A DNA stretch of 64,000 bases. Source: Tritonibacter litoralis (lineage in GTDB: Bacteria > Pseudomonadota > Alphaproteobacteria > Rhodobacterales > Rhodobacteraceae). Made by a program: the position numbers and the translations under genes. The stretch spans positions 1 to 64,000 of the forward strand of contig NZ_WIBF01000010.1 in the NCBI RefSeq assembly GCF_009496005.1, written 5' to 3'. How positions within the stretch are numbered: position 1 is the first letter of the stretch; each line of letters opens with the position of its first letter. This document shows, piece after piece, positions 44,671 through 55,106 of the stretch. A model generated the notes under the pieces. The model was not told the DNA's origin. It saw nothing but the letters and a program-made list of their open reading frames with translations, and made no database searches.

Positions 44671-44716
44671 GGGTTGGACCAAGGCGGCGCGCCCCCATTT
44701 GTTTCAGGGGATTCAC

Positions 44717-47350
44717 ATGACACAGCAGGACCACACCCAAGGGAGTGCGGCCGCAGACGCGATGGTGGCCGAAGCGGACACCGGCGCGCGCAACGCCACC
44801 GGCGTGCAGGGCAAGACCATCCTGGCGCTTTGTATTATCTGGTCTTTATTCCAGCTTTATATCGCCTCCAAACTGCCCGGCATCATGGCGCAGCTGACGG
44901 GGTTTTCGGATTTCGCCAATATCGTGGCGCAAGCGCGTTATGTGCACTTGGCCTTTGCCATTGCGCTGGCCACTCTTGCTTTCCCGCTGTTCAAAACCTC
45001 ACCACGTGATCGTATTCCGGCCTATGACTGGGTGCTGTTGGCGCTGGGGGTCGGGGCCTGTCTCTATCTGGTGATCTTCCGCTATCAGATTGCTGACCGC
45101 CCAGGTCTGTGGAGCACCAGCGATATCGCGGTATCAGCCACCGGCATGGTGGTTTTGATGGTCTGCGTCTACCGCGCGCTTGGTCTGCCGCTGGTCATCA
45201 TTGCCTCTGCCTTTGTGCTGTTTGCTTTCTTTGGTGGCTATTCCGAATGGGTGCGCGAGCTGACGAATTACGGCGGCGCCTCCCTCAGCAAGGCTCTGGG
45301 GCATTACTGGATGCAAACTGAAGGCGTCTTTGGCGTGGCCCTTGGGGTGTCGACCACGATGATCTTTTTGTTTGTTCTGTTTGGCGCGCTTTTGGACCGT
45401 GCAGGCGGCGGCAATTGGTTCATCAAAGTTGCCATTGCCCTCTTGGGTGCGCTGCGCGGCGGCCCGGCCAAAGCGTCCGTCCTGTCATCTATGCTGACCG
45501 GCATGATCTCCGGCTCGTCCATCGCCAACACCGTGACCACCGGCACCTTTACCATTCCTCTGATGAAGCGCATTGGCTTTCCAGCGGAAAAGGCGGGCGC
45601 GGTAGAGGTTGCCTCCTCCACCAATGGTCAGCTGACCCCGCCTGTGATGGGGGCCGCGGCCTTCCTGATGGTGGAATACGTCAACATTCCCTACATCGAC
45701 GTGGTGAAACATGCGTTTCTGCCTGCGGTGATCTCTTACATCGCGCTGTTGTACATTGTGCATCTGGAGAGCCTGAAGATCGGCCTTGAAGGTCTGCACA
45801 AACGCGGGCGCAAGATCGGGGTTTTGATGATCCTGATCCTGTTCCTCTCTGGTTTCATCTTCCTCGGATTGGCGACCTTCCTGATGATCGGCGTGCGTGC
45901 GCTCTTGGATCCCATTATGGGCGACACGATCTATGCGGCCCTGGCCATTGTGGCGGTGCTGTATGTTGTGCTGGTTGCTGTGGCTGCGCGGTATCCGGAT
46001 GTTGAGGTCGACGATCCCAACGCCGCCGTACCCGAAGCACCGCGCCTGACGCCGACGCTGTTGGGCGGAGCCTATTTCGCGCTGCCGATCTTCATTTTGG
46101 TGTGGAACCTGATGGTGCGCACCGAAAGCCTGGACCGGCTGTCCCCGGCCTTGTCCGCATTTTGGGCAACCATCTTTATGGTCATCGTTGCGCTGACGCA
46201 CCGCCCCCTCAAAGCGTTCTTTCGCCAGCATGATTTTGTGGCCGAGGTCACGGCAGGCTGGAACGATTTTGTCCAAGGTCTGATCATGGGCGCGCGCAAT
46301 ATGATCGGGATTGGTGTCGCCACCGGTGCCGCTGGCATCATTGTTGGCACCATCTCTTTGACCGGCGCGCATCAGGTGATCGCACAGGTGATCGAGGTTG
46401 TCTCGGGCGGGAACCTGATGGTTCTGCTGTTCCTGGTTGCGATCCTGTCGCTGATCCTGGGCATGGGGCTGCCGACCACCGCGAACTATATCGTCGTGTC
46501 CAGCCTGATGGCTCCGGTGATTGTCACTGTGGGCGCGCAGGCGGGCCTGACCGTGCCCCTGATCGCCGTTCATATGTTTGTGTTCTACTTTGGCATCCTC
46601 GCCGATGACACGCCACCCGTGGGCCTTGCGGCTTATGCGGCGGCTGCGATCTCGCGTGGGGATCCGATCAAGACCGGCATCCAGGGCTTTGGCTATGACA
46701 TCCGCACGGCGTTGTTGCCGTTCCTGTTCATCTTCAACACTGATCTGTTGTTGATTGACGTGGGGCCGCTCAAGGCGGTGTTTGTCTTTGCCGTGGCTTT
46801 GGTGGCGATGCTCTTGTTTGCGGCAGCAACCCAAGGGTACTTCATCGCAAAATCCCGACTATGGGAAACCGCTGCGCTGCTGCTGATTGCCTTCACGCTG
46901 TTCCGTCCGGGCTACTTCCTCGACATGGTGTCCGAAAAATACGCCGAAGCCTCTGGCCCGGCGGCGATCACCCTCATGTCTGAACAGGCGGATGCCAGCG
47001 ACATCAGGCTTGTGGTCGCAGGACCGGATTTTGACACTGGCGACATACGACGCACCACCGTTGTGATTCCCGCCGTTGCAGGCGACGGCACCGCGGCACT
47101 GGATGATCAAGGGCTGACAGTCCTGCAGGATGGCGACACGCTGGCGCTCGAGGAACCCTTCCCCGGCACGCCACATTTCGACACGCTGGGGACGGAATAT
47201 GATTTCTATGGCGACACGCCGGTTCAGATTGAACTGGTTCAAGTGGAAAATGACCGCCTGCCCAAAGAGATCTTCTTCATCCCGGCCTTCCTGTTGTTGG
47301 CGGCTTTGGTCCTGATCCAGCGCCGCCGCGCCACCCAACCTGCGTTTTAG
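44717..47350 (+). CDS. TRAP transporter fused permease (DctQM type) with DUF3394
   Basis: An 877-residue membrane protein fusing the small four-helix and large twelve-helix TRAP subunits. GMISGSSIANTVTTGTFTIPLMKRIGF and ILGMGLPTTANYIVVSSLMAPV are typical large-subunit loops. A C-terminal soluble segment (about 755-845, from DIRLVVAGPDF) followed by a final helix matches DUF3394, found in TAXI-associated permeases. It uses the Na+ or H+ gradient with the TAXI protein. The start at 44717 has CAGGGG upstream. Confidence 0.92.
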   Translation: MTQQDHTQGSAAADAMVAEADTGARNATGVQGKTILALCIIWSLFQLYIASKLPGIMAQLTGFSDFANIVAQARYVHLAFAIALATLAFPLFKTSPRDRIPAYDWVLLALGVGACLYLVIFRYQIADRPGLWSTSDIAVSATGMVVLMVCVYRALGLPLVIIASAFVLFAFFGGYSEWVRELTNYGGASLSKALGHYWMQTEGVFGVALGVSTTMIFLFVLFGALLDRAGGGNWFIKVAIALLGALRGGPAKASVLSSMLTGMISGSSIANTVTTGTFTIPLMKRIGFPAEKAGAVEVASSTNGQLTPPVMGAAAFLMVEYVNIPYIDVVKHAFLPAVISYIALLYIVHLESLKIGLEGLHKRGRKIGVLMILILFLSGFIFLGLATFLMIGVRALLDPIMGDTIYAALAIVAVLYVVLVAVAARYPDVEVDDPNAAVPEAPRLTPTLLGGAYFALPIFILVWNLMVRTESLDRLSPALSAFWATIFMVIVALTHRPLKAFFRQHDFVAEVTAGWNDFVQGLIMGARNMIGIGVATGAAGIIVGTISLTGAHQVIAQVIEVVSGGNLMVLLFLVAILSLILGMGLPTTANYIVVSSLMAPVIVTVGAQAGLTVPLIAVHMFVFYFGILADDTPPVGLAAYAAAAISRGDPIKTGIQGFGYDIRTALLPFLFIFNTDLLLIDVGPLKAVFVFAVALVAMLLFAAATQGYFIAKSRLWETAALLLIAFTLFRPGYFLDMVSEKYAEASGPAAITLMSEQADASDIRLVVAGPDFDTGDIRRTTVVIPAVAGDGTAALDDQGLTVLQDGDTLALEEPFPGTPHFDTLGTEYDFYGDTPVQIELVQVENDRLPKEIFFIPAFLLLAALVLIQRRRATQPAF

Positions 47351-47361
47351 GGGAGAGTAAG

Positions 47362-47787
47362 ATGTTCAAGACCATATTGCTTGCTGTTGATGTAAACGAT
47401 CCCAAAGGCGCCGAACGTCCAGCTGCAACAGCGCTGCAACTGGCTGGTGCCGCCGGGGCCAAGCTGCACATTATGAACGTGGTGCCTGATTTCGGGATGG
47501 CGATTGTGGGCTCCTTTTTCACCCAGGATCACAATGCCCAGATCATGGCGGAAGCCAAAACCGCACTGGAAACCTGGGCCAAGGCTTTGAAGGACGCCCC
47601 CAAAGATACGGTTCTCCACGTCGATCAAGGCACCATCTATGAGGAGGTTTTGAAAGAGGCTGCGCGGATCAAAGCCGATGCAATTGTTGTTGGGGCTCAT
47701 AAATCTCAGCTCAAGGACTACTTGATCGGCCCCAATGCGGCGCGGATTGCGCGTCATGCCCAGCAATCGGTGTTTGTCGTCCGATAA
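47362..47787 (+). CDS. Universal stress protein, UspA family
   Basis: A 141-residue Usp-fold protein. The N-terminal FKTILLAVDVNDPKG and the ATP-binding motif GAHKSQLKDYLIGPNAARIARHA (G-2x-G-9x-G-S/T-like) are visible. It is 11 bp downstream of the TRAP permease, as with TeaD of the ectoine TRAP system, where the Usp modulates transport. A perfect terminator follows. Confidence 0.88.
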   Translation: MFKTILLAVDVNDPKGAERPAATALQLAGAAGAKLHIMNVVPDFGMAIVGSFFTQDHNAQIMAEAKTALETWAKALKDAPKDTVLHVDQGTIYEEVLKEAARIKADAIVVGAHKSQLKDYLIGPNAARIARHAQQSVFVVR

Positions 47788-47969: not shown

Positions 47970-47996
47970 CGCTCCCGCCCAAAAAAGGCGGGAGCG
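47970..47996 (-). terminator. Terminator of the guanidine operon
   Basis: CGCTCCCGCC (47970-47979) pairs perfectly with GGCGGGAGCG (47987-47996). It lies 28 bp after the stop of the last leftward gene, with a T-rich loop on that strand and TTGTTA after it. Confidence 0.6.
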
Positions 47997-48024: not shown

Positions 48025-48183
48025 TTAGCGCGAGCGGAAAAAGAAGTAGGCCGACGCCATCACAACCATTACCACCAGGATGGGGGTCACTTCGGTGCCA
48101 TGGGGATGCAGATGCGCCCCCTCATGGGCCCAAGCCGGAGCTGTTGCAGCCAGTGTCGCGGTTACGGTCAGAAGGGTTTTCAT
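48025..48183 (-). CDS. 52-residue His-containing membrane peptide
   Basis: A small gene overlooked by length cut-offs. The product has a signal peptide (MKTLLTVTATLAATAPAWA), then HEGAHLHPHGTE with four histidines, a membrane helix (TPILVVMVVMASAYFFF) and a basic end RSR. This predicts a periplasmic histidine patch tethered to the membrane. Its ATG overlaps the stop of the upstream His-rich gene as ATGA, strong evidence for translation in the operon. Metal (nickel or zinc) capture for the guanidine hydrolase is inferred; no family is recognised with certainty. Confidence 0.75.
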   Translation of the reverse strand: MKTLLTVTATLAATAPAWAHEGAHLHPHGTEVTPILVVMVVMASAYFFFRSR

Positions 48184-48641
48184 GTTTCGATTTCCTGTTT
48201 GCGTTCCAGTAGAAACTCACGAATGTCGCGGGTCTGTTTTTCATCCATAGAGACATAGATGAGCGCCATATTGGTTCGCTCTGTCACCATCTCACCCGGA
48301 AAAGGCAAGTAACTCAGCTCTCGCGAGCCAAAGGAAGGAGAGGCGGTGCCCACCTGCCATTCGGTCTTCAGCTCGATATCAATCAGCTTCAGCGCCTTGG
48401 CCCCATCCTTGGACGGGCGCTCAAATGGCACGCCGGCCAGTTTCAGATAGCTCGCCTTGTCTGTGGCCTGCAGAAACCCTTCGATAAACTGGGTCGCCAG
48501 AACTTGTAGATCTGCCGCCACATCTTCGGCATGCATATGAGAATGCAGGTGATCCCCATGGGCGTGGTTATGCCCTGCCCCATGATGATGGTGGTCAGGA
48601 TGATGGTGGTGATGGTCGTGTGGGTGATCGTGGGGCATCAT
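48180..48641 (-). CDS. His-rich putative metallochaperone
   Basis: A 153-residue soluble protein with 19 histidines in its first 37 residues, spaced as HDH, HHHHH, HHHH and HxH. A conserved-looking alpha/beta body follows (AEDVAADLQVLATQFIEGF...SFGSRELSYLPFPGEMVTERTNMALIY). The His-rich arm resembles those of nickel chaperones such as HypB or UreE, but the body has no GTPase P-loop. It overlaps both neighbours by 4 bp in the guanidine operon, directly after the hydrolase gene. Its likely role is nickel storage or delivery to that enzyme. Function not demonstrated from sequence. Confidence 0.8.
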   Translation of the reverse strand: MMPHDHPHDHHHHHPDHHHHGAGHNHAHGDHLHSHMHAEDVAADLQVLATQFIEGFLQATDKASYLKLAGVPFERPSKDGAKALKLIDIELKTEWQVGTASPSFGSRELSYLPFPGEMVTERTNMALIYVSMDEKQTRDIREFLLERKQEIET

Positions 48642-49912
48642 TCACCTATCTTATGAGGTTCAGCATTGGCCCAGCGTTTGCCCTCGAACTCGCCATGCGG
48701 GAGCGACACCGGCTTGTCGATATGACGCTTGTGCGCGCCCAGTTTGCCGTTTGACACCATTGCACCCAGCACATCCACGATAACACGCGTGCCCATCAGT
48801 GCCGTGATGTCCGACGTGTCATAGGGCGGTGAGACCTCGACCAGTTCCATGCCACAGATGCCTTCGGCAGCGATGCCAGAGGCCAGCGCCAGCGCTTCGC
48901 GCGGCAGGAAACCACCGGGTTCGGGCCAGCCTGTCCCTGGGACAAAGCCACAGTCGATGCTGTCGATGTCAAAGGACATATAGACCATATCCACATCTTT
49001 CCACGCCATCTCCAAAGCCATTTCGATGGTCTTGGCGATGCCCATCTTCTCAACGTCGCCCATGGTGATGATATTGGTGTTACGCTCGCGCGCGACTTTC
49101 ACCGCCTCGCGCGGAACCTGCCAGCCACCGATCCCGATCTGCACCAGATTGGTGGCCGGAACATTGGGCAGGTTGGTCGAATGGAACCAGGGCGTTGTGT
49201 GCATCCGCTCATCCAGGTCTTTCTCCTGAATGTCGGCGTGGCGGTCGAAATGCACGATACCGATCCGTTTGGACGTACATTCTGCGATGCCGCGCACACA
49301 AGGGAAGCCAATGGAATGATCGCCGCCAATCATGATCGGCAAGGACCCGGACGAGAATACATGGCTGACGCCACGGCTGATCTGGTCAAAGCTCTTTTCG
49401 ATATTGGCGGGGATCGTGAACACATCCCCTGCGTCACACAGTGTCATCTGTTCGCGCAGATCAACACCCAGCTCATAGTTATAGGGCGTATAAAGCGCCG
49501 AGATCTTGCGCACACCTTGCGGGCCGAACCGTGTGCCCGGACGGTAGGTGGTGCCGCCGTCAAACGGAATGCCCAGAACCGTTGCATCGTAATTCGCAAC
49601 ATCCAGCACATCTTCGGCATAGGGCGCTTTGAGGAAGGTGTTAATGCCCGCAAAATGCGGCAGCTCACCACGGGCAAAGGTTGGAATCGACTTATCCTCG
49701 ATCGTGTCCGCCCCCGTCAGCCCCATGCGCAGCGCCCAGCGGCGCTCTTCCTCAAGGCGGCCTTCGGGCAGGTCGGCTTCTTTTTGCATGGCTTTCCAAC
49801 CCGCGAGCTTAGTCAGATCGGGGTGGTGGGCGCGTCTGTCGCGCCGGTCCAATCGCGCCCGCTGATCGGCCGGATGGTGCGATCGGTTATGCGGTCGCTG
49901 TGTGAACAACAT
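48638..49912 (-). CDS. gdmH: Ureohydrolase, probable Ni-dependent guanidine hydrolase
   Basis: A 424-residue arginase/agmatinase-fold enzyme. Metal ligands are His199 (GGDHS), Asp223, His225 and Asp227 (HFDRHAD), and Asp315 and Asp317 (SFDIDSID). About 100 residues precede the core, longer than agmatinases and like GdmH of cyanobacteria. HFDRH replaces the usual HFDAH, and PGTGWPEPGG replaces PGTGTPEPGG. The start at 49912 is set by AAGGAG seven bases upstream and overlaps the ATPase gene by 26 bp. The guanidine-I riboswitch on this operon makes guanidine, giving urea and ammonium, the expected substrate. Agmatinase or guanidinobutyrase is the alternative. Confidence 0.85.
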   Translation of the reverse strand: MLFTQRPHNRSHHPADQRARLDRRDRRAHHPDLTKLAGWKAMQKEADLPEGRLEEERRWALRMGLTGADTIEDKSIPTFARGELPHFAGINTFLKAPYAEDVLDVANYDATVLGIPFDGGTTYRPGTRFGPQGVRKISALYTPYNYELGVDLREQMTLCDAGDVFTIPANIEKSFDQISRGVSHVFSSGSLPIMIGGDHSIGFPCVRGIAECTSKRIGIVHFDRHADIQEKDLDERMHTTPWFHSTNLPNVPATNLVQIGIGGWQVPREAVKVARERNTNIITMGDVEKMGIAKTIEMALEMAWKDVDMVYMSFDIDSIDCGFVPGTGWPEPGGFLPREALALASGIAAEGICGMELVEVSPPYDTSDITALMGTRVIVDVLGAMVSNGKLGAHKRHIDKPVSLPHGEFEGKRWANAEPHKIGE

Positions 49913-50660
49913 TTTCGTTCTCCTTGGTGGTTTGGAAAGGAATGCCGTTGTTACGGGCATCAAAGTCATAGGTGATCGTGGCGCCGTAACGCCCCGGATC
50001 ATGCGGGTCCCAGCGGGGCTTGTCGAAAACCAGACAACGGTCGCCCAGCTTGAAGCCTTCTTCCAGATCATGGGTGACCATAAAGACTGTCATATTGGTC
50101 TCGGCCCGCAGCTCTTGCAGAAAGTCATGCATTTTCAGCCGGGTGCCAGGATCCAGCGCGCCAAAAGGTTCATCCAGCAGCAACACCCTGGGTTTGGCTG
50201 TCAACGCCTGCCCAATGGCCAAACGCTGCTGCATCCCCCCCGAAAGCGCGGCGGGGTATTGCTCGGCCACGTGATTAAGACCGATCCGCTCCAACATCTC
50301 ATCCGCGCGTTCTACGGCCGCGCGCCGGGCGGTGCCAAACAGCCGCCCCCATGGGGTCTTGAACCCTTCGCCTGCGATCAGATTTTCGCGCACGGTCAGA
50401 TGCGGAAACACGGAATAGCGTTGAAACACAACGCCGCGCTCCAGGTTGGGCTCCACCGCCGGTTCACCGCCATCAATGCGAATGGTGCCTTTCTTGGGCG
50501 TCTCTTCCGCCAGAAGCATCCGCAGAAAAGTGGATTTGCCGCAGCCCGACGCGCCAACGATTGAGATAAACTCCCCCTCGTCCACGGTGACATTGACCCG
50601 TTCCAGGATCGAGCGATCGCCATAGGCCTGCCAGACGTTTGAGACATCAACAAAACTCAT
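49887..50660 (-). CDS. ABC transporter ATPase (nitrate/taurine type), guanidine uptake
   Basis: A 257-residue ATPase of the SsuB/TauB/NrtD group. Walker A is VGASGCGKSTFLR, the signature LSGGMQQRLAIGQAL, and Walker B RVLLLDEPFGALD, followed by the H-loop FMVTHDLEEGF. It starts at the ATGA overlap with the permease gene, and its 3' end overlaps the hydrolase gene. Position under the guanidine riboswitch indicates guanidine import, as for the related transporter next to cyanobacterial gdmH. Confidence 0.92.
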   Translation of the reverse strand: MSFVDVSNVWQAYGDRSILERVNVTVDEGEFISIVGASGCGKSTFLRMLLAEETPKKGTIRIDGGEPAVEPNLERGVVFQRYSVFPHLTVRENLIAGEGFKTPWGRLFGTARRAAVERADEMLERIGLNHVAEQYPAALSGGMQQRLAIGQALTAKPRVLLLDEPFGALDPGTRLKMHDFLQELRAETNMTVFMVTHDLEEGFKLGDRCLVFDKPRWDPHDPGRYGATITYDFDARNNGIPFQTTKENENVVHTATA

Positions 50661-51469
50661 AGACCCGCCTCCATCCATGGAAAGGCCTTGCGGGACAGGG
50701 TCTTGAGCAGCCAGTCGATGACAAAGGCCAGAAGCGTGATCCAGATGACGTAGGTCAGGATCACATCCATCGCGAGGTAACGGCGCACCAGAAAGATCCG
50801 GTAGCCCAGGCCCACGTTTGAAGCCACCGCTTCCGCCGCGATAAGGAACAGCCAAGCCGAGCCCAGCGACAGGCGGATGTTTGAAATCAAGCGCGGCAGC
50901 AGCTGTGGTAGAACCACGTTCAGCGCCACCACCCAGGTGGACGCACCAAGGGTCTGCGCCTTCACAAATTGTTCGCGGGGAATATCCAGCACCCGCTGTG
51001 ACAGATCTCGCGTCATGAAGGGCGTGATGCCAATGACAATCAGCACCACTTTGGACACTTCGCCAAGCCCAAAGACGATAAACAGGATCGGCAACAGCGC
51101 CAAAGGGGGCACCATGGACAGAACCGCGACAAAGCCGGACAGGCCGCTGCGGGCATAAGGCAAAAGGCCGATCGCCATACCAATTATCAGCGCAATCGTG
51201 GCCGAGATCACAACGCCCCCCATTAGACGTGCGAGGCTGGCGAATGTGTCTTTCCACAGCAGAATATCCTGACTGCGCCGGTCAGGTTCCGTGAACAGCC
51301 GCACCGCCGTGTCCCAGATGGTGCCGGGTGCCGGCAGCAGCTTGTCCGACGGGTTGGCCGTCAATCGGATCTCAGAGCCGATGGCATAGGCGGCCAGCAC
51401 AAGTATGAACGGCAGCATCGCCAAGGCCACCGCCCCGGGACGCGCCGGAATTTGGTTCATCAATCGCAT
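50657..51469 (-). CDS. ABC transporter permease (SsuC/TauC type)
   Basis: A 270-residue membrane protein with about six helices. The EAA loop region is REQFVKAQTLGASTWVVALNVVLPQLLPRL. The start at 51469 (MRLMNQIPARPG) has GAGGG upstream; an in-frame Met at 51460 is weaker. Second gene of the guanidine operon, 67 bp after the binding-protein gene and overlapping the ATPase gene by 4 bp. Confidence 0.9.
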   Translation of the reverse strand: MRLMNQIPARPGAVALAMLPFILVLAAYAIGSEIRLTANPSDKLLPAPGTIWDTAVRLFTEPDRRSQDILLWKDTFASLARLMGGVVISATIALIIGMAIGLLPYARSGLSGFVAVLSMVPPLALLPILFIVFGLGEVSKVVLIVIGITPFMTRDLSQRVLDIPREQFVKAQTLGASTWVVALNVVLPQLLPRLISNIRLSLGSAWLFLIAAEAVASNVGLGYRIFLVRRYLAMDVILTYVIWITLLAFVIDWLLKTLSRKAFPWMEAGL

Positions 51470-51536
51470 GGTGAAACCCTCGCTAAGTTGGTCCGTGAGT
51501 GGTGGGGCCACCGCATAGCCGCAGCCCCGCGAGGGA

Positions 51537-52604
51537 TCAGAGAGCGCCGTCGGCCGCCATTTGCATATAGGTCGCGTCAAACCGGAACTTCACATTGCCC
51601 GCGTCACCGGTTGTGCTGCCATCGGGGTACGCAATGCCCACAAAATCCGCGCTTGGCGCGCCCTCCCCCAAGATCCCCTTGTCAAACAGGAACTCTGCCA
51701 CATTGGTCATCGTGGTGGGCAAATCGGCGGATTGAGCCTGCGCGACAGCGTCTGCGGGATCAAAGAACATCTCTGTCGCGGCCAACTGCGCTTTATAGCC
51801 CGCCAAATCTGTGCCCGATGCTTCGGCCATTGCCGTCAACGTGGCTTCATCACCCGCTGCCATCAGCGACATGACCTCATACCATGCGCCCGCCACTGCT
51901 TTGCCAAACGCCGGATTGTCGGCCAGGGTTTCGGTGTTCACCACCATCAGGTCCAGGATTTCACCGGGGATTTTGGAGCTGTCAAACAGCACAGTCGCAT
52001 CGGGGTTTGATCCTGTGATCTCGGACACCAGCGGGTTCCAGGTCACCACCGATTTCACGTCCGAGGTCGCATAGGCCGCGATCATATCCGCGTCCGAAGT
52101 GTTGATGACCCCGCCAAGGTCCGCCTCTTTCAGGCCAACGGTGTCCAACCCGCGCGCCAGAAGGTAGTGTGAGACCGACAGCTCCACGAGGTTGACTGGC
52201 GCGCCTTTCAGATCTTCCAGCGTGCCTTCCCCTTTGAGGATCACTGCATCGTTGCCGTTGGAGTAGTCGCCAATAATCAGTGCCGTCGTGTCGACCCCAC
52301 CGCCAGAGGGGATCGAAAGCGTGTCCATATTGGTGGCCGATACGCCGTCAAATGCACCGGCTGTGTATTGGTTGATGGATTCCACATAGTCGTTGATCTG
52401 GACGATCTCCACGTCGATACCGTATTTTTCAGCCCATTTGTCCATGATGCCACTGTCTTCGAGATAGCCCCACGGCATCCAGCCCACATAAATGGACCAG
52501 GCCAGTTTGAACTCGGTCTTTTCCTCAGCAGCCAGTGGCGCGACGCTTCCGGCAAGAATACCTAATGCAAGAGCGGTAGCGGACAGAAACTTGGTCTTGG
52601 TCAT
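51537..52604 (-). CDS. ABC transporter substrate-binding protein (NMT1/SsuA-like)
   Basis: A 355-residue periplasmic binding protein with signal peptide (MTKTKFLSATALALGILAGS...PLAAEEK). FKLAWSIYVGWMPWGYLEDSGIMDKWAEKYGIDVEIVQ is the N-lobe pattern of nitrate/sulfonate/taurine binding proteins, rich in Trp that could cage a small cation by pi stacking. First gene after the guanidine-I riboswitch, 90 bp downstream of it, with GGGGAAAG before the ATG. Predicted ligand: guanidinium. Confidence 0.9.
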   Translation of the reverse strand: MTKTKFLSATALALGILAGSVAPLAAEEKTEFKLAWSIYVGWMPWGYLEDSGIMDKWAEKYGIDVEIVQINDYVESINQYTAGAFDGVSATNMDTLSIPSGGGVDTTALIIGDYSNGNDAVILKGEGTLEDLKGAPVNLVELSVSHYLLARGLDTVGLKEADLGGVINTSDADMIAAYATSDVKSVVTWNPLVSEITGSNPDATVLFDSSKIPGEILDLMVVNTETLADNPAFGKAVAGAWYEVMSLMAAGDEATLTAMAEASGTDLAGYKAQLAATEMFFDPADAVAQAQSADLPTTMTNVAEFLFDKGILGEGAPSADFVGIAYPDGSTTGDAGNVKFRFDATYMQMAADGAL

Positions 52605-52694
52605 GACTTTCCCCGTTGTCGCGTCCCGCCCATGTTTTTGATTGGTTTACGAGCCGCTGGCGGAACAAAGAGATAAGGCGCGGACGAAACCTGC

Positions 52695-52809
52695 GCAGTA
52701 CTCTCCCGGGATTTTGGCCCGCCGTGTGCCTAAGGGGAATTTGCCCCACAGGTGGCGCTTCTCGGACCAGACTTGTCAGTTTACGACAACGGAACCCTAA
52801 GCACCCTGC
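52695..52809 (-). promoter_or_regulatory. Guanidine-I (ykkC) riboswitch
   Basis: On the minus strand the conserved blocks appear in order. They are TTAGGGTTCCG (about 52790-52800), CTGGTCCGAGAA (52770-52759), ACACGGCGGG (52727-52718) and CAAAATCCCGGGAGAG (52716-52701). P1 is closed by GTGCT (52804-52800) with AGTAC (52702-52698), extended by GCA/TGC. These match the ykkC consensus (GGGUUCCG, CUGGUCCGAGAG, ACACGG, AAAAgCCCGGGAGA). Ligand binding normally switches the downstream genes on; 90 nt separate it from the first start codon. Confidence 0.93.
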
Positions 52810-52815
52810 AGCCTC

Positions 52816-52922: not shown

Positions 52923-53089
52923 CTGAGGCGGAAAACACGTCCAACCTGTCGTTTTACGGACATGCTCCCCCGCTAGGATCACGTGAACCCCATTAATGCG
53001 CACAATAAATAGGCATCCAGTAGCGACCAATGTTGTCGCTTTTGAGCGCTGCAATGGCCAGACCTCAAACGCCTTGCTACGGTGAGAGT

Positions 53090-53878
53090 ATGACGAGCGC
53101 ACTTCCCCTTTTGGTCTTTTCAGACCTTGATGGCACTTTATTGGATCACCAAACCTACAGCTGGGCCGCCGCCCGCCCCGCGCTGAACGCGCTTGCCGAT
53201 TGTGGGGCTGGTGTGGTTCTGGCCAGCAGTAAGACCGCCGTTGAAATCCAGATTTTACAACAAGAGATGGGGCTGACCCAATGGCCCGCCATTGTTGAAA
53301 ACGGGGCCGGCGTGATCTGGCGCGCGGACAGCGATGTCTTTGACACCGCGAGTTATGACAAGCTGCGTGTGGCCTTGGCCGATCTGCCATCCGGGTTCGT
53401 GGGATTTGGAGACATGTCCGATCAGGATGTGGTTGATGAAACCGGCCTGTCCCTGGAAGGTGCAAAAGCCGCACGGATGAGGTGTTTCAGCGAACCCGGC
53501 CTTTGGCAGGGCCCTGTGGACAGGCTGGCAGAGTTTTTGGATGCTGCCCGCGACAAAGGTATATATGCGCGTCAGGGCGGGCGATTTCTGACCTTGTCCT
53601 TTGGCCGCACCAAAGCTGACGCCATGGCCGAGGTTGCGGCGCGTCTGGCCCCCAAAACAACGCTCGCTCTGGGCGATGCACCCAATGATATTGAGATGTT
53701 GTTGGCCGCAGACCACGGGGTCTTGGTGGCAAACCCGTCTGCGCCCCCCATCCCCAAAACGCCGGACACGAAAAAGTTGATCCGCACCATCGAACACGGC
53801 CCCATGGGGTGGAACCAGGCGGTTCTCTCCCTATTGAACGACCAAAACCTGACCAAAGGCACAACTGCACATGGCTGA
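53090..53878 (+). CDS. gpgP: HAD phosphatase, probable glucosyl-3-phosphoglycerate phosphatase
   Basis: A 262-residue HAD-superfamily (Cof/MPGP subtype) phosphatase. Motif I is FSDLDGTLLDH, motif II VVLASSKTAVE, and motif IV LALGDAPNDIEMLLAAD. MPGP-type enzymes remove phosphate from mannosyl- or glucosyl-3-phosphoglycerate. It overlaps the synthase gene by 8 bp, so the pair makes glucosylglycerate (or mannosylglycerate), a compatible solute. The start at 53090 has GGTGAG upstream. The sugar specificity is inferred from neighbours. Confidence 0.85.
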   Translation: MTSALPLLVFSDLDGTLLDHQTYSWAAARPALNALADCGAGVVLASSKTAVEIQILQQEMGLTQWPAIVENGAGVIWRADSDVFDTASYDKLRVALADLPSGFVGFGDMSDQDVVDETGLSLEGAKAARMRCFSEPGLWQGPVDRLAEFLDAARDKGIYARQGGRFLTLSFGRTKADAMAEVAARLAPKTTLALGDAPNDIEMLLAADHGVLVANPSAPPIPKTPDTKKLIRTIEHGPMGWNQAVLSLLNDQNLTKGTTAHG

Positions 53879-55106
53879 CTTTCACCAAAACGGCAACATC
53901 ACCACTTTGCACAATCTGCGCCAGCGCCCCTTGGGCAGTTTGGACCACGAAATTTCCGTGATCGCCGAAAGCCGCAAAGTGTCACTGATCCTACCGTGTC
54001 TCTATTCCGAGCTGGAAGGGCCCGCCCTTGGCAATATTCTGGAGGAGCTGGCGCAGGTCCCCTATTTGCACCGGATCATCATTGGCCTGGACCGCGCGGA
54101 TGAGGCGCAGTTTCTCAAGGCGCGTGAGTTCTTTTCCCGTCTGCCACAAGAGCATGTGGTGATCTGGAACGACAGCCCGCGCATGTTGGAAATGCAGTCA
54201 CGACTGGTTGAACTGGGGCTGGCCCCCCAAGAACCCGGCAAGGGCAAAAACGTCTGGTCCTGTATCGGCTATCTGATCGCCTGCGCCGACAGCTCGATCA
54301 TGGCGATCCATGATTGTGACATCGTGACTTACAATCGGGAGATGCTGGCGCGGCTGATCTATCCGGTGGTGAACCCTGCGTTCCCATACCAAATGTCCAA
54401 AGGGTTCTATCCACGGATCGGTGACGGAAAGCTGAATGGCCGCGTCACTCGCCTGCTGGTCAGCCCCTTGTTGATTGCCTTGAAACGTGTGATCGGAGAC
54501 CGCGACTACCTCGATTACCTGCGCAGCTTCCGATACCCGTTGTCGGGCGAATTTGCCATGCGCACGCCGATCCTGCCGGATCTGCGGATCCCCTCCGATT
54601 GGGGTCTGGAAATCGGTGTCCTGTCCGAGGCCTGGCGCAACCTCGCGCCGAAATCCGTCTGCCAGGTTGAGATTTCGGACGCCTATGATCACAAGCACCA
54701 GGATCTGTCGCCTGAGGATGCCTCAAAAGGCCTCAGCCGCATGTCCGTTGACATCTGCAAAGCCATCTTCCGCAAGCTGGCGGCGGATGGCACCGTATTC
54801 ACCCCCAATATATTCCGCACGCTCAAGGCGACCTACTACCGATCAGCGTTGGACCTTCTGGAAGGCTATTACAACGATGCCAAGATGAACGGGCTGGAGC
54901 TGGACCGCCACAAGGAGGAAAAATCGATCGAGATGTTTGCAGAAAACATCCTGCTGGCCGGTCAGATCTTCTTGGAAAACCCGCATGAAACGCCGTTTAT
55001 CCCCACCTGGAACCGGGTGCATTCCGCAGACATGAGCTTTCTGTCGGATATGCACCGGGCCGTGGCGGCGGATCTAGCGGAGTTTACTCCGCCTTCCGGT
55101 TCGTAA
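53871..55106 (+). CDS. gpgS: Glucosyl-3-phosphoglycerate synthase (GT-A fold)
   Basis: A 411-residue glycosyltransferase of the GpgS/GT81 kind, transferring glucose from a nucleotide sugar to 3-phosphoglycerate. The metal-binding DxD is in MAIHDCDIVTYN (Asp148, Asp150). GKGKNVWSCIGYLIA, YQMSKGFYPRI and DYLRSFRYPLSGEFAMR are acceptor and donor-site segments. Coupled to the phosphatase gene. Its 3' end overlaps the convergent phosphorylase gene by 23 bp. A mannosyl version (MpgS) is less likely given the GpgS-like length and the adjacent GH13_18 gene. Confidence 0.85.
   Translation: MADFHQNGNITTLHNLRQRPLGSLDHEISVIAESRKVSLILPCLYSELEGPALGNILEELAQVPYLHRIIIGLDRADEAQFLKAREFFSRLPQEHVVIWNDSPRMLEMQSRLVELGLAPQEPGKGKNVWSCIGYLIACADSSIMAIHDCDIVTYNREMLARLIYPVVNPAFPYQMSKGFYPRIGDGKLNGRVTRLLVSPLLIALKRVIGDRDYLDYLRSFRYPLSGEFAMRTPILPDLRIPSDWGLEIGVLSEAWRNLAPKSVCQVEISDAYDHKHQDLSPEDASKGLSRMSVDICKAIFRKLAADGTVFTPNIFRTLKATYYRSALDLLEGYYNDAKMNGLELDRHKEEKSIEMFAENILLAGQIFLENPHETPFIPTWNRVHSADMSFLSDMHRAVAADLAEFTPPSGS

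Follow-up and report, generated by a model that had tools for sequence, protein, structure and literature searches.

Results

A guanidine operon with a histidine-tailed gene behind gdmH

The window analyzed here is the whole 64,000-nucleotide (nt) stretch of Tritonibacter litoralis contig NZ_WIBF01000010.1, positions 1 to 64,000. Its minus strand carries a six-gene operon in which a Guanidine-I riboswitch is followed by genes for an ATP-binding cassette (ABC) importer, by gdmH, the putative guanidine hydrolase gene, and by the gene for a 153-residue histidine-tailed protein, to which we give the working label GdmX. The riboswitch aptamer (52701 to 52811, minus strand) matched the Rfam covariance model RF00442 from 52811 to 52701 over its full length (model positions 1 to 107), with 84.6 bits against a gathering score of 63 and an E value of 1.2e-13. 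Behind it, all on the minus strand, lie the leader (52605 to 52700) and the genes for the ABC substrate-binding protein (51537 to 52604), the permease (50657 to 51469; PF00528, E 2.3e-20; start at 51469 picked by eye), the ATPase (49887 to 50660; PF00005, E 5.2e-34), GdmH (48638 to 49912; 424 residues), GdmX (48180 to 48641), and a 52-residue peptide (48025 to 48183). Four of the five gene junctions overlap, by 26 nt between the ATPase gene and gdmH and by 4 nt at permease/ATPase, gdmH/gdmX, and gdmX/52-residue peptide; the binding-protein and permease genes are separated by 67 nt. A terminator-like hairpin (47970 to 47996, minus strand; 11 pairs, 9 of them G-C) lies 28 nt past the stop of the last gene. 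We judged this hairpin on its strength and place, since the scan total (9 terminator-like sites, against 5.2 expected from shuffles) gives little.

In 49 of 49 related loci, gdmH and gdmX share one strand with relatives of the ABC genes, which in locus L019 are set 4 to 6 kb away. In one locus (L086, genome G436), the binding-protein gene behind the riboswitch has shrunk to a 67-residue remnant, and the permease, ATPase, gdmH, and gdmX genes are kept. The E values and these 49 loci rule out chance as an explanation of the riboswitch and operon. A sequence-only reading of the same DNA had placed a ykkC/Guanidine-I riboswitch at 52695 to 52809, with leftward genes behind it for an ABC importer (binding protein, permease, and ATPase), a GdmH-like ureohydrolase, and two histidine-rich proteins. 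That observation is confirmed, with the end at 52695 lying 6 nt beyond the Rfam match.

The ureohydrolase groups with guanidinases

In a search of PDB sequences, the 424-residue protein scored 529.5 bits to 7esr and 7oi1, 528 bits to 9fek, and 171 bits to the next-best match; apart from 7esr and 9fek, chains with agmatinase in their names reached at most 129 bits, compared with 529. PMC11410670 describes 7OI1 and 7ESR as the Synechocystis guanidinase and 9FEK as that of Nitrospira inopinata. A 38-row tree, which holds no agmatinase row and for which the program warned of long branches, placed the window GdmH in a clade with 7esr, 9fek, and four actinobacterial relatives (support 100/99). Guanidinobutyrase, guanidinopropionase, proclavaminate amidinohydrolase, and the paralogues from the window genome fell outside this clade; two paralogue rows, L218 and L219, came out as one sequence, their loci overlapping. 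The guanidine specificity residues T97 and W305 (Synechocystis numbering), as given in PMC11410670, align with T122 and W329 of the window protein. All 25 GdmX-linked tree rows retain the two residues; the six other rows of the guanidinase clade have the threonine in every case and the tryptophan in five (Embleya lacks it). The scores (529 versus 171 bits) and the clade support (100/99) rule out some other ureohydrolase. By these comparisons the enzyme is a true GdmH, in line with the sequence-only reading. Of the three outcomes that this reading had named as refuting it, two were checked and did not arise: a ykkC match is present, and the enzyme falls among the guanidinases. GdmH is described as nickel dependent and activated by nickel chaperones (PMC11399263 and PMC12186494), and the window enzyme probably hydrolyzes guanidine in the same nickel-dependent manner.

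GdmX accompanies gdmH across Alphaproteobacteria

A gene for GdmX lies 3' of gdmH in 50 of 50 gdmH-seeded alphaproteobacterial loci examined (43 from the order, 4 from the phylum, and 3 from plasmids). The search of the order found gdmH in 44 of 390 genomes at E 1e-100, and in 43 of 43 examined, including the window, GdmX follows on the same strand; this count leaves out genome G380, where the gdmH match, within a short open frame, breaks off after residue 333 (of 424), which we took for a contig end. The phylum search found gdmH in 7 of 398 genomes, of which 3 had already been counted and 4 came from other alphaproteobacterial families, and GdmX was present in all 4. Seven of 11 plasmid records were examined, four of the five Sinorhizobium plasmid matches being left out, and the three alphaproteobacterial loci among them all carry GdmX. 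The start of gdmX is at most 35 nt from the gdmH stop in 46 of 49 loci, as measured by script; the distance is 523, 122, and 387 nt in L020, L069, and L078, respectively.

The pairing was also seen from the side of GdmX. Among named genomes, gdmH lies upstream of GdmX in 80 of 80 loci, these being the best 80 of 185 relatives and hence the nearest ones; this set partly contains the same genomes as the set above (L100 and G002:C15, for example), so the two are not independent. A GdmX profile search at class level found 12 of 385 genomes; of the 11 besides that of the window, 9 have gdmH adjoining and 2 do not. Stretches fetched around GdmX lack gdmH in G557, which has only a GdmX fragment, and in G794, where a cut binding-protein gene reaches GdmX. 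At phylum level, the 7 genomes of 398 picked out by the GdmX profile are also those in which gdmH was found (Fisher 3.4e-15, treating as one set the two 398-genome draws, which agree in size and in the members listed). One weak GdmX match (G052, E 1e-3) spans only query residues 6 to 48, mostly the histidine tail. Genome G889 (locus L208) has the riboswitch, gdmH, and GdmX, but no matching ABC genes adjoin them. This indicates that GdmX belongs with the enzyme rather than with the transporter and disfavors a transporter-accessory role.

GdmX has a histidine-rich tail and a conserved domain

All 19 histidines of the window GdmX fall within residues 1 to 37. Across 61 GdmX members, the median number of histidines is 15 in the tail (range, 1 to 27) and 1 in the remainder; L018 has a second, C-terminal histidine run, and in the G794 copy the run is C-terminal. 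Residues 38 to 153 form a conserved 116-residue domain, predicted with a pLDDT (predicted local distance difference test) of 91.9 to fold as two helices, a sheet, and a C-terminal helix. Comparison of gdmX between the window and G002 gave nonsynonymous and synonymous divergences of 0.07 and 1.7, respectively, indicating purifying selection. No signal-like start is visible by eye, so GdmX is expected to be cytosolic. In two annotated plasmid records its entry reads hypothetical protein.

None of the 61 members has a meaningful Pfam or NCBIfam match. Weak matches were to a Pfam viral movement protein (1 member), an NCBIfam nickel/cobalt efflux transporter (3 members), and three other models (1 member each). 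Proteins in which a histidine-rich stretch is tied to a nickel enzyme include HypB, UreE, and Hpn. GdmX is likewise histidine rich and linked to a nickel enzyme, but no such chaperone model matched it: curated nickel-chaperone models (HypA, HypB, and UreE) gave no hit at E 0.1 with any of the 61 members, the HypA and UreE models being, we presume, in the libraries searched. The GdmX profile found nothing below E 0.29 among PDB sequences, and structure searches with the domain returned nothing convincing, a result that does not by itself show a new fold.

HypB is missing from most genomes with gdmH and GdmX

The cyanobacterial gdmH operon includes hypA/hypB or nickel-delivery genes, according to PMC8390497 and PMC12186494. 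By Pfam and NCBIfam matches, neither hypA nor hypB is among the six genes of the operon studied here. Searches with HypA and HypB queries from the window genome gave no match in any of the 80 named GdmX stretches (the best 80 of 185), which extend up to 8 kb per side. Genome-wide, HypB alone was sought, with the TIGR00073 cut-off. HypB scored above the cut-off in 11 of 50 and 3 of 15 genomes. G557 and G794 were dropped from the latter group since no gdmH lies in the fetched stretch, leaving 63 genomes with both gdmH and GdmX; HypB above the cut-off is absent from 49 of these 63. This disfavors loading by HypA/HypB as the general route. The shortest distance seen between HypB and gdmH on one contig is about 46 kb (G129). 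Weaker matches of 60 to 85 bits in the HypB searches look like UreG, and in the window genome such a match adjoins urease.

Transport, urease, and riboswitch control

The binding protein scored 516.1 bits to TIGR03427 (ABC_peri_uca; cut-off, 333.9), a model whose name refers to putative urea transport. The importer more likely carries guanidine, because the riboswitch and GdmH are in the same operon. The urease alpha gene of the window genome is on a contig other than that of the operon. Another 49 genomes, each with gdmH but without HypB, were searched and all carry urease, for a total of 50 of 50 searched. Within about 8 kb of gdmH, urease genes lie in L212 and a UreG-like gene lies in L195 and L199, which fits urea as the product of GdmH. 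The sequence-only reading had considered the operon complete and self-contained. That part is not supported: the operon lacks hypA/hypB, and GdmH releases urea while the urease genes sit on another contig. The reading had noted the histidine-rich genes without assigning them a function. Its interpretation is thus partly supported, and use of guanidine as a nitrogen source by this bacterium is suggested by the gene content.

Guanidine-I riboswitches scored above the cut-off in 59 of the 63 gdmH genomes; one further genome had a sub-threshold match, and the search found none in the other 3. The riboswitch lies within the fetched gdmH stretch in 58 of 63 (57 loci and the window), and in G580 it is on another contig. 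In one relative, a second Guanidine-I riboswitch (G321:C11:33894-34002) lies about 98 kb from the gdmH-associated one. An alignment of 16 leaders, drawn from 58 available, showed compensatory changes in the aptamer helices. Immediately 5' of a Shine-Dalgarno-like site, a GUUCCGCC/GGCGGGAC hairpin pairs in 14 to 16 of the 16 leaders; it is supported by sequence conservation, not by compensatory change. The terminator scan found no terminator-like site between the aptamer and the first gene. The riboswitch presumably senses guanidinium and controls expression here, and the conserved hairpin, together with the lack of a terminator-like site in the leader, makes translational or Rho-linked control likelier than intrinsic termination. 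In its full-length match above the gathering score the element resembles other RF00442 riboswitches; it differs in the conserved hairpin before the Shine-Dalgarno-like site and in the absence of a U-run terminator.

The 52-residue peptide

By reading, the last gene of the operon encodes a signal-like start, the motif AHEGAHLHPHG, and a membrane stretch, so that its product looks like an exported, membrane-anchored histidine peptide. A loose pattern picked out open reading frames (ORFs) resembling it immediately behind GdmX in 25 of 65 loci. Any role for this peptide is a guess.

Discussion

A proposed role for GdmX in nickel loading of GdmH

Operons that combine the riboswitch, importer, and GdmH are already known, and the one described here adds a member to that type; what is new is GdmX in place of hypA/hypB. 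In the mechanism that we propose, guanidinium would bind the leader RNA and switch on a single transcript, the ABC proteins would import guanidine, and GdmH, as a nickel ureohydrolase, would split it to urea and ammonium, the urea then being broken down by the urease encoded elsewhere in the genome. GdmX, whose frame overlaps the end of gdmH, would be a dedicated maturation factor for GdmH: its histidine tail would gather Ni(II), and its conserved domain would dock on GdmH and pass the metal on. It would thereby do without a GTPase what HypA/HypB do for the cyanobacterial enzyme. A possible task for the 52-residue peptide is to retain nickel on the outer side of the membrane. Nickel loading, with nickel binding and docking by GdmX as putative steps, is the simplest account of a partner that is near-obligate, overlaps the gene of an enzyme of a nickel-dependent type, bears a histidine tail, stays with gdmH in G889, and occurs where HypB is mostly missing. 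We consider it probable that this is a guanidine operon with GdmX as the dedicated nickel-loading factor standing in for HypA/HypB. More tentatively, GdmX may represent a new class of GTPase-independent nickel metallochaperone, in which a histidine-tail collector on a docking domain, possibly of unknown fold, matures a ureohydrolase alone and which took over from HypA/HypB a single time, at the root of the alphaproteobacterial guanidinases; the case for this wider proposal is close to balanced, leaning slightly against it.

Several observations weigh against a dedicated loading role. HypB is present in 14 of the 63 genomes, including the window's own and G889, and in the window genome HypA- and HypB-like genes lie in an apparent hydrogenase cluster, so their help is possible in this strain. 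With urease in 50 of 50 genomes searched, UreE/UreG could supply nickel as well as HypA/HypB. The number of tail histidines is unrelated to the presence of HypB (P = 0.40; 61 genomes), and thus tail length does not track the absence of HypB. The tail is almost lost in G558, G580, and G757 (1 to 3 histidines, domain kept); of these lineages, two have HypB and one, G558, lacks it. Histidine tails also bind zinc, cobalt, and copper, and the predicted GdmX fold gives no functional hint. GdmX was found in 0 of 4 actinobacterial plasmid loci examined (the guanidinase loci L212, L213, L214, and L215), and these have no HypA/HypB match in the fetched stretch either. For comammox guanidinases, PMC11410670 reports no recognized nickel chaperone and no dedicated loading protein, and it calls the loading mechanism unclear. 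A guanidinase of this type can therefore exist without GdmX.

Some of these points would suit a GdmX that serves as a nickel store or buffer, keeping free nickel low while the operon is on; GdmH would then acquire its metal passively or from UreE/UreG, with HypA/HypB contributing in some strains. The variable length of the histidine-rich tail, urease in all 50 genomes searched with UreG-like matches in the HypB searches, and HypB in 14 of 63 genomes agree with such a role. Retention of the conserved domain where the tail is nearly lost (G558, G580, and G757) argues against GdmX being nothing but a store, as does its link to gdmH alone when all 50 genomes also carry urease; we regard this explanation as unlikely. 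The retained domain leaves room for GdmX as a structural or regulatory, noncatalytic subunit or an assembly factor of GdmH with the histidine tail secondary, which the obligate pairing and overlapping frames would also fit. However, PMC11410670 describes the guanidinases of known structure as homohexamers with no such partner, and a median of 15 tail histidines is hard to explain without metal, making a subunit role rather improbable. That the operon serves a substituted guanidine or other guanidino compound instead of free guanidine is very improbable: the TIGR03427 model is named for urea, but the riboswitch is of the Guanidine-I type and the enzyme has T122 and W329, the equivalents of the specificity determinants in PMC11410670.

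Comparison with known systems

The Synechocystis gdmH (sll1077) operon shares with the window operon the Guanidine-I riboswitch, the ABC importer genes, and the GdmH specificity residues (PMC8390497, PMC12186494). Operons of the Synechocystis type have hypA/hypB, whereas here gdmH is followed by GdmX and often by a small histidine-containing membrane peptide. The N. inopinata guanidinase belongs to the same enzyme clade and is under guanidine-I control; it is accompanied by an APC permease and by no recognized nickel-loading protein, in contrast to the ABC genes and GdmX of the window operon (PMC11410670). The metformin and dimethylguanidine hydrolases (MefH/DmgH) are likewise nickel-dependent ureohydrolases activated by operon-encoded chaperones, but their operons contain hypA, hypB, hupE, and a two-gene enzyme, whereas the window operon has GdmX and a one-gene enzyme (PMC11399263).

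We found no report of GdmX in a literature search that did not cover the main GdmH paper or any supplementary files, where an earlier mention is possible. GdmX, whose range within the Alphaproteobacteria extends from marine roseobacters to Sinorhizobium fredii NGR234, is a concrete, testable candidate for nickel loading of GdmH in these bacteria. If the proposed role is correct, GdmX would provide a nickel-delivery route without a GTPase, could serve as a practical helper for producing active guanidinases, and would mark genomes able to use guanidine nitrogen.

Neighboring genes

Two features of the plus strand flank the operon. A 411-residue ORF without a Pfam match (53871 to 55106) overlaps a HAD-phosphatase gene (53081 to 53878); by resemblance, we take the two to be possibly a sugar-phosphoglycerate synthase/phosphatase pair. 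On the other side, a fused TRAP permease gene with DctM and DUF3394 domains (44714 to 47350) is followed by a universal stress protein gene (47362 to 47787).

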